In this document: positions 28,610-63,588 of the stretch, piece by piece | How positions within the stretch are numbered: position 1 is the stretch's first letter | Layout of the letters: each line of letters opens with the position of its first letter | From: Haloarcula amylovorans | Lineage (GTDB): Archaea > Halobacteriota > Halobacteria > Halobacteriales > Haloarculaceae | Direction: 5' to 3' | DNA length: 64,000 nucleotides | Assembly: GCF_004681185.1 (NCBI RefSeq) | Contig: NZ_SRIF01000001.1 | Coordinates: forward strand, 558,001 to 622,000 | The notes under the pieces: generated by a model | Databases searched by the model: none | Told to the model about the DNA's origin: nothing | What the model saw: only the letters and a program-made list of their open reading frames with translations | Made by a program: the position numbers and the translations under genes

Positions 28610-29275
28610 ATGAGCGTCATTTTGGAGTTCACACTCGACGCTGACGAGTTCACTCTTGGACAGGCTCTGTCAGGGCCACCCACGATGGAGATAGAACTCG
28701 AACGCATCGTCCCCACTGGCAAAGCCGTACTGCCGTTAATCTGGGTGACCGGCCCCACCGAAGACCTCGACACGTTCGAGACGGCGGTACGCAACCATCC
28801 GAACGTTGAAGCGTTCCGCGAACTCGACACGGTTGGCGACAGTCGCCTGTACCGATTCCGGTGGATGAACGACCCCGAGAATCTCATCGAAGAACTCGCA
28901 GACCTCGATGCGACCATCCTTGAGGCAATCGGGGACGACCAGTGGACATTTCGGGTTCGCTTTGCCGACCACGAGAAACTCACCCGTTTCCACAACTTCT
29001 GTACCGACCGGGGCATCAGGATTCACATTGAGCGCACGTACACACTAACCGAGGACACCGAACGCGGGCATCGCTTCGACCTCTCGCCCGAGCAGCGCGA
29101 AGCCCTCGTGTTGGCCTTGCGCCGAGGATACTTCGCCACGCCGAGGGAGGTCGAACTCACTGCTCTCGCTGACGAGCTCGGTATCTCCCGGCAGGCGGTC
29201 TCTGACAGGATTCGTCCTGCCAACGAGAAAGTCCTCCAGAAGGCTTTGCTCTCCGCCGGGTCGCAATACGAGTAA
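28610..29275 (+). CDS. bacterio-opsin activator-like transcription regulator (HTH_10)
   Basis: A 221-residue regulator. The N-terminal 150 residues match the bacterio-opsin-activator sensor-like domain (VILEFTLDADEFTLGQAL, IELERIVPTGKAVLPLIWVTG), and the C-terminus is the HTH_10 domain: LSPEQREALVLALRRGYFATPREV then LTALADELGISRQAVSDRIRPANEKVL. Haloarchaea have many of these, with targets known for only a few. It begins a short plus-strand islet with two mini-proteins. Base composition is a little less GC-rich than its neighbours, in keeping with accessory DNA. Confidence 0.85.
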   Translation: MSVILEFTLDADEFTLGQALSGPPTMEIELERIVPTGKAVLPLIWVTGPTEDLDTFETAVRNHPNVEAFRELDTVGDSRLYRFRWMNDPENLIEELADLDATILEAIGDDQWTFRVRFADHEKLTRFHNFCTDRGIRIHIERTYTLTEDTERGHRFDLSPEQREALVLALRRGYFATPREVELTALADELGISRQAVSDRIRPANEKVLQKALLSAGSQYE

Positions 29276-29369
29276 TCGCGGCCTCTCTACTTAATAAAAC
29301 GGCTGACTGGTCAAGGGATACTGATTTGCGAACAGGCCTAGTCCAGGTAACCAACCGAGGCAGTCACTC

Positions 29370-29531
29370 ATGTCCACAGAAGATTATCGAGAGAAGTCGC
29401 GTTCTCACCTCGAAGATGCGATACAGGCTGAGGACCTAGAAACAAAGAACCACCATATCCGTGAGGCACTGCAACTCCTCGCCATTAAGACCCAAATCGC
29501 GTCTGCAAATCAAGGGAGAGAGAGTGCATGA
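29370..29531 (+). CDS. 53-residue helical mini-protein, family with 63430-63588
   Basis: ATG at 29370, TGA at 29529-29531, overlapping the next start in ATGA. The product is charged and helix-forming: SHLEDAIQAEDLETKNHH and IREALQLLAIK. Residues 13-40 match the mini-protein at 63430-63588 in about 16 of 28 positions (HL-DA-x3-A, KN-x-HIR-x-ALQLL). Two related copies plus coupling to the next gene support a real gene. The repeated H-x3-A and ALQLL pattern suggests a helical hairpin or dimer; function is unknown. Confidence 0.68.
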   Translation: MSTEDYREKSRSHLEDAIQAEDLETKNHHIREALQLLAIKTQIASANQGRESA

Positions 29532-29743
29532 CACAATCAGAAGATGCCGACAAGGCATTCGCGGAAAGCGAGCCAGTCATTATGGCTGACGGGGAAACAC
29601 ACGTTCCATGTACTGCCCCGTCGTGTGACGAAAATGCGATCAACTCGTGTTATGATTCAAATATCGAGCAATACGTCGCTTTTTGCGACGATTGCATCGA
29701 GGAGTGGGTAGGGAAAAGTCACATCGAACTTGTCGACGGGTAA
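29528..29743 (+). CDS. 71-residue cysteine-rich protein (possible zinc site)
   Basis: A small acidic protein with five cysteines at 28, 33, 41, 53 and 56 (VPCTAPSCDEN, NSCYDS, AFCDDCIEEW). The C-x4-C plus C-x2-C arrangement could hold one zinc ion. It is translationally coupled to the mini-protein before it (ATGA). The codons are less GC-biased than in core genes nearby. I do not recognise the family; a small regulator or protein-binding adaptor is possible but unproven. Confidence 0.65.
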   Translation: MTQSEDADKAFAESEPVIMADGETHVPCTAPSCDENAINSCYDSNIEQYVAFCDDCIEEWVGKSHIELVDG

Positions 29744-63429: not shown

Positions 63430-63588
63430 ATGACACCGACGAAACCGCAAACGGAAACTGAAGAAATGAGTGTCGAGCAAGCGAAAGCGCTCGAACACCT
63501 CAGAGACGCGTTACGCGCCGACACCTCTGAGAAGAAGAACTACCACATCCGAACGGCGCTACAGTTGCTGACCGTCGCCGCCGACTGA
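63430..63588 (+). CDS. 52-residue mini-protein, family with 29370-29531
   Basis: ATG at 63430, TGA at 63586-63588. The core EHLRDALRADTSEKKN and YHIRTALQLLTVAAD matches the mini-protein at 29370 in about 16 of 28 positions, including the KN-x-HIR-x-ALQLL stretch. A second ATG at 63466 would give a 40-residue product covering the whole shared core. Two copies with the core conserved and ends varying are the main evidence. Function unknown. Confidence 0.65.
   Translation: MTPTKPQTETEEMSVEQAKALEHLRDALRADTSEKKNYHIRTALQLLTVAAD

Follow-up and report, generated by a model that had tools for sequence, protein, structure and literature searches.

What does a pair of similar short open reading frames represent when the two lie in one stretch of a haloarchaeal chromosome, and what might their products do? 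The window analysed here (64,000 nucleotides of Haloarcula amylovorans contig NZ_SRIF01000001.1) contains two such ORFs, which an initial annotation, made from the letters alone, took for a new mini-protein family present twice. Both are found with the positions and lengths it gave, and the first lies within a compact gene group:

28610..29275, plus strand: BAT/HTH_10 transcription regulator, 221 aa (Pfam HTH_10 6e-16, BAT 2e-15)
29276..29369, plus strand: gap between the regulator and mini-protein gene 1, with TAATAAAACG at 29292-29301 and TCACTC immediately before the ATG
29370..29531, plus strand: mini-protein gene 1, 53 aa, MSTEDYREKSRSHLEDAIQAEDLETKNHHIREALQLLAIKTQIASANQGRESA then stop; core at residues 5-41 (29382-29492)
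29528..29743, plus strand: Cys-containing small protein, 71 aa, its ATG overlapping the stop codon of the preceding gene as ATGA
63430..63588, plus strand: mini-protein gene 2, 52 aa, MTPTKPQTETEEMSVEQAKALEHLRDALRADTSEKKNYHIRTALQLLTVAAD then stop; core at residues 15-51 (63472-63582)

The resemblance between the two products is as close as first described. About 16 of 28 core identities had been claimed; BLASTP gives 17 identities over 31 positions (37.4 bits), and the motifs HLxDA and KNxHIRxALQLL are exact in the pair. When the 403 window ORFs of 30 to 110 aa were compared all against all, this pair reached E 2.4e-8, and the runner-up nonoverlapping pair 0.004. The core common to both comprises 37 residues. 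The start codon of the 52-aa ORF is supported by a paralog at C1:754299 (L097), which has the same MTxTKPxT N terminus.

Profile searches revealed many further members of the family, without a Pfam, NCBIfam, or PDB sequence match. In the whole-genome search, the window proteins scored E 3e-14 and 2e-14, and a broad 37-position profile detected nine modules at eight loci of the host genome, whose 34 contigs add up to 5.04 Mb, as follows:

Contig C1: 256161 (minus strand), 587385 (window copy 1), 621475 (window copy 2), 754347, and 889307
Other contigs: C23:306997 (minus strand), C32:169393-169602 (a 105-aa ORF holding a tandem pair of modules), and C33:33152

With loci picked by similarity to seeds, in sampled genomes that are not independent of one another, at least one match (E <= 1e-3) was present in 160 of 392 Halobacteriales genomes (41%, a patchy distribution) and in 47 of 95 genera. 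The phylum sample of 393 genomes yielded no match outside the host order. The highest copy number, 12, was reached in a genome from genus g23, whose copies are similar to named Halorussus loci. Among the 49 named loci from a scan of genome contigs are those of Halobacterium salinarum (L088, sequence beginning MVELCDGCIDHLEAALQ), Natrinema, Natrialba, Halorubrum, Halorientalis, and Halorussus; at a plasmid copy in Halomicrobium urmianum, no gene is listed in what is an incomplete gene table. We therefore regard it as well supported that the window ORFs belong to a large, haloarchaea-specific, unnamed family of two-helix proteins of about 45 residues, named here the HLExAL-HIRxALQ hairpin and defined by a 37-residue gap-free core with L10, A13, L14, R27, and Q31 together with the two-helix fold. 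Both window proteins carry this core; position 14 is I rather than L in the shorter-cored variant's place only for the 53-aa product.

Once near-identical members had been discarded, 77 nonredundant cores aligned over 37 columns with no internal gap, giving the consensus HLExALxA[DE][DE]xxEKx[YF]HIRxALQLL. Conservation is highest at A13 (100%), L10 (99%), R27 (97%), L14 (95%), and Q31 (94%), followed by H25 (83%), H9 (71%), and K22 (64%), the values for A13 and R27 being slightly inflated by an extraction pattern that demanded A/G at position 13 and R/H/K at position 27. Only four sequences failed this pattern, mostly through greedy matching or a truncated start. Most proteins of the family are acidic (median pI of about 4.7). 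As to selection, dN/dS (Nei-Gojobori) ranges from 0.05 to 0.40, well below one, in all close-relative pairs for which it can be calculated; two pairs yield no ratio, their dS being saturated. Purifying selection and the conservation of the four-base overlap, as GTGA in another species, argue from sequence for translation, as the initial annotation had proposed.

Neither window protein has a curated Pfam or NCBIfam match, and 38 members searched against these collections gave only stray subthreshold matches (best E, 0.0065). The C-terminal domain of Vta1 (PF18097) was considered and rejected, since it was matched by only 4 of the 38 members, at E 0.035 or weaker, below the Pfam cutoff. Another match is phrog_34188 (186 positions, function not assigned in PHROG), a longer protein than the hairpin family members. 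The module matches it near the C terminus, at positions ~150-179 (best E, 7e-8), and the protein is probably a fusion containing the hairpin module. AlphaFold2, run with the 53-aa protein and 37 homologs, predicts a two-helix hairpin formed by residues 3-19 and 23-51, with a mean pLDDT of 88.4 that rises to about 97 in residues 11-30. No Foldseek match to this hairpin fell below E 0.001; 2rkl, the solved Vta1 domain, ranks first, but at E 1.5, and what Foldseek and VIA match is what any helical hairpin would match. Many unrelated PDB chains resemble a hairpin of two helices, so the fold alone is uninformative on function.

The genes around the first copy say more. The regulator at 28610..29275 is followed, on the same strand and after 94 nt, by mini-protein gene 1, and the ATGA at 29528-29531 contains both the TGA of the 53-aa ORF and the start of the 71-aa ORF, the overlap noted in the initial annotation. 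Because the 53-aa gene comes after a BAT/HTH_10 regulator, its immediate neighbours are informative and not random. A genome of the same genus (G152, locus L149) retains the entire operon of BAT regulator, mini-protein, and 71-aa Cys protein, with GTGA as the four-base overlap where the window has ATGA. Pairwise alignment of the intergenic region shows that TAATAAAACG and the TCACTC before the ATG are kept in this ortholog, and these elements are compatible with a promoter and ribosome-binding region of the mini-protein gene's own, a role that is possible from their conservation. Between the window and L149, the mini-proteins are 49% identical (dN/dS 0.36), the BAT regulators 90% (0.15), and the Cys proteins 79% (0.11). 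The L149 mini-protein is thus evolving faster than its two neighbours; it also lacks the HHIR histidines and may be under relaxed constraint.

The 71-aa protein carries the pattern C-x5-C ... C ... C-x2-C and has four paralogs in the host genome (L141-L144); one paralog lies directly 3' of a DUF7344 gene (L145 4315-4515). It was rejected as an obligatory downstream partner of the hairpin, as among 243 genomes it was found only in the host, plus one operon of the same genus. This confinement makes it lineage specific, possibly a Brz-like small-protein family.

The initial annotation had noted that the neighbours of the two copies differ. This holds for the window pair, the second copy (63430) having no HTH_10 or DUF7344 gene adjoining it, but not for the family, in which neighbours follow a pattern. 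Among the clustered, Pfam-assigned neighbours of 90 copies, the most recurrent families are BAT/HTH_10 and DUF7344. A same-strand BAT/HTH_10 gene lies directly 5' in the window and at L096, L103, L117, L127, L129, and L149. A DUF7344 gene, in some cases with BAT before it, lies directly 5' at L098 (host), L073, L101, L104, L106, L113, L114, L122, L161, L231, L232, L235, and L238, the order BAT-DUF7344-mini-protein being found at L098, L073, L101, L104, L106, L113, L122, L231, and L238. These upstream DUF7344 genes often overlap the mini-protein start: stop and start share four bases at L098, L106, L122, and L235, and the genes also overlap at L114, L161, and L232. With genes called by a home-made codon-usage caller and counted with home-made profiles seeded from neighbours of the mini-proteins, BAT occupies 14 of 120 same-strand upstream positions 1-2 versus 11 of 523 at positions 3-5 (p 2e-5), and DUF7344 10 of 120 versus 11 of 523 (p 0.002). 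The enrichment weakens to p 0.006 and 0.017, respectively, when orthologous loci are merged into 76 groups. The host genome encodes 50 BAT/HTH_10 and 35 DUF7344 regulators; three of its eight hairpin loci are preceded on the same strand by an HTH_10 gene at most 0.5 kb away, although the 5 Mb contain just 50 such genes.

The module is also found within larger proteins. DUF7344 (PF24035), a winged-helix domain, is its most frequent fusion and operon partner, and the DUF7344 model excludes the hairpin, which lies outside the domain. The hairpin is placed at the C terminus of DUF7344 proteins at L121, L124, L132-L134, and L226 (six g23 genomes, one orthologous group) and at the N terminus at L100 (host) and L150 (G152). 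In several genera, it is fused to the C terminus of a Pyridox_ox_2 protein (L034, L044, L067, L155, L156, L222, and L224); a match on a Natrialba magadii plasmid has no annotation beyond pyridoxamine 5'-phosphate oxidase family protein. An apparent fusion at L154 (463-511-aa ORF) was set aside as probably a short ORF within a reverse-frame read-through, and likewise the long ORF at L221. In two related genera, a compact member lies between XRE-CBS-like and purM-like genes at ten loci (L171-L176, L180, L183, L151, and L152), the family's most stable chromosomal position. Its place directly 3' of an XRE-CBS-like regulator adds to the link between the module and regulators. At L157 (5699-5836) and L223 (3967-4104), a member lies directly 5' of a conserved protein of ~300 aa, which gives the impression of resembling Vms1/release-factor-like proteins.

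Since the hairpin occurs free, in tandem, at both ends of winged-helix regulators, and in overlapping operons, we propose a protein-protein docking or oligomerization module. The dimerization or docking suggested in the initial annotation is compatible with the predicted hairpin, the fusions, and the operons. More specifically, the hairpin would bind and modulate HTH-type regulators, a role to which we give about an even chance. A mini-protein, which carries a conserved, mostly polar residue set (H, K, H, R, and Q), would bind the regulator of its own operon, mainly a DUF7344 winged-helix or BAT/HTH_10 protein; binding would alter the assembly or activity of the regulator, the mini-protein being either a co-regulator or an anti-regulator that titrates it. 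We infer both the binding of the adjacent regulator and an effect of binding on transcription. Judged from gene order and fusions, regulators are the best-supported partners of the module.

SinI of Bacillus, Aqs1 of a Pseudomonas phage, and Sda are examples of small two-helix proteins whose targets are regulators or kinases. The hairpin family is like them in size, in its predicted fold, and in that its genes lie near or are fused to regulators, but there is no sequence similarity, and SinI and Aqs1 are not its homologs. In VIA, Aqs1 (6v7v; Z 6.0) and the KinB-Sda complex (3d36) scored Z 6.0-6.1, no better than unrelated hairpins. By analogy with SinI and Aqs1, the free mini-protein could titrate the regulator or co-assemble with it. 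A literature search on DUF7344 and on the sequence of the H. salinarum member returned no result.

Closer to the host are Brz and Brb of the H. salinarum bop gene cluster (PMC2253796, PMC3184054), which, like the hairpin proteins, are small haloarchaeal proteins in a Bat regulatory setting. Brz has a zinc finger of the CPxCG type, and Brb is a basic protein, whereas the hairpin family is mostly acidic and alpha-helical, without CPxCG; both window mini-proteins contain no cysteine and thus lack the two Cys/His pairs that mark the Brz type, of which one is CPxCG-like. The nearer analogue of Brz is the 71-aa Cys protein, though it has no strict CPxCG motif. In H. salinarum, the genes of both Bat homologues adjoin or lie near genes for small zinc-finger proteins (PMC2253796). 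Those genes, together with the hairpin and Cys proteins beside the BAT gene here, suggest a wider habit of pairing Bat-type regulators with mini-proteins.

Regulators would not be the sole partners, since most members outside Halorussus and the host are solitary among ordinary metabolic genes and a subgroup carries the Pyridox_ox_2 fusion. The hairpin could instead be a general-purpose two-helix tag, homo- or heterodimerizing, on unrelated proteins, regulators being one class of client and solitary copies having other partners or acting alone. The Pyridox_ox_2 fusions in several genera (L034, L044, L067, L222, and L224) fit such a tag, as do the tandem modules of L099 and L102 and the many solitary copies with unrelated neighbours. 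The absence of a regulator beside the second window copy likewise counts against docking on regulators. However, two regulator families predominate among the recurrent neighbours, and DUF7344 fusions have arisen at both ends in separate lineages, so we see the general tag as a possible reading but a somewhat unlikely one.

That the module is itself the effector, binding nucleic acid or another ligand through K, H, R, and Q as a small sensor or an RNA/DNA-binding hairpin, seems to us improbable. Its appeal is that polar residues H9, K22, H25, R27, and Q31 are the best conserved after the hydrophobic positions, and that one subgroup has cysteines (ELCEGCKDHL...QACG) that could bind metal. This Halobacterium/Halorubrum subgroup (L061 5007-5171, L068 5001-5165, and L088 4980-5144) starts with LC[DE]GC..HL and has an extra Cys after the HIR helix, and its members might bind a metal ion. 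A general metal site was rejected, as the Cys/His set (C-x2-H ... HIR ... C) occurs in this subgroup but is absent from many other members, both window copies included. A metal or catalytic site common to the family is also at odds with the many Halorussus-like regulator-operon copies in which both histidines are substituted (for example, AVEALTEAL...DYQIREAL), and direct binding of a ligand such as nucleic acid with the acidity of most members.

The patchy occurrence, the lineage expansions to as many as 12 copies, and the plasmid location of some copies would suit a selfish or antitoxin-like mini-gene spread by mobile elements without a regulatory role. We hold this to be very unlikely: one copy keeps a fixed chromosomal position directly 3' of an XRE-CBS-like regulator (identified by eye) at all 10 loci examined in two genera, no toxin-like partner recurs, and a viral origin was rejected because 50,697 phage records gave no match and IMG/VR no confirmed one. 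Finally, short ORFs are frequent in G+C-rich DNA and many overlap in the window, but spurious ORFs or chance similarity are refuted by the standing of this pair among the 403 ORFs, the existence of nine host copies and of hundreds in other genomes that share a gap-free core, and defined dN/dS values that are all at or below 0.40.

Returning to a module that docks on regulators, we speculate, with considerable reserve, that it is exchangeable and wires BAT/HTH_10 and DUF7344 regulators into circuits: operon-encoded mini-proteins would compete with, or join, regulators that carry the module in cis, and paralogs would cross-connect the circuits. A haloarchaeal genome encodes BAT/HTH_10 and DUF7344 regulators by the dozen, few of them with a known signal or partner. 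A conserved small candidate partner, co-encoded and sometimes fused, would offer an experimental handle on how these regulators are controlled. Because Pfam and NCBIfam lack it, the hairpin also contributes to haloarchaeal annotation a sizeable family of small proteins as yet unnamed.
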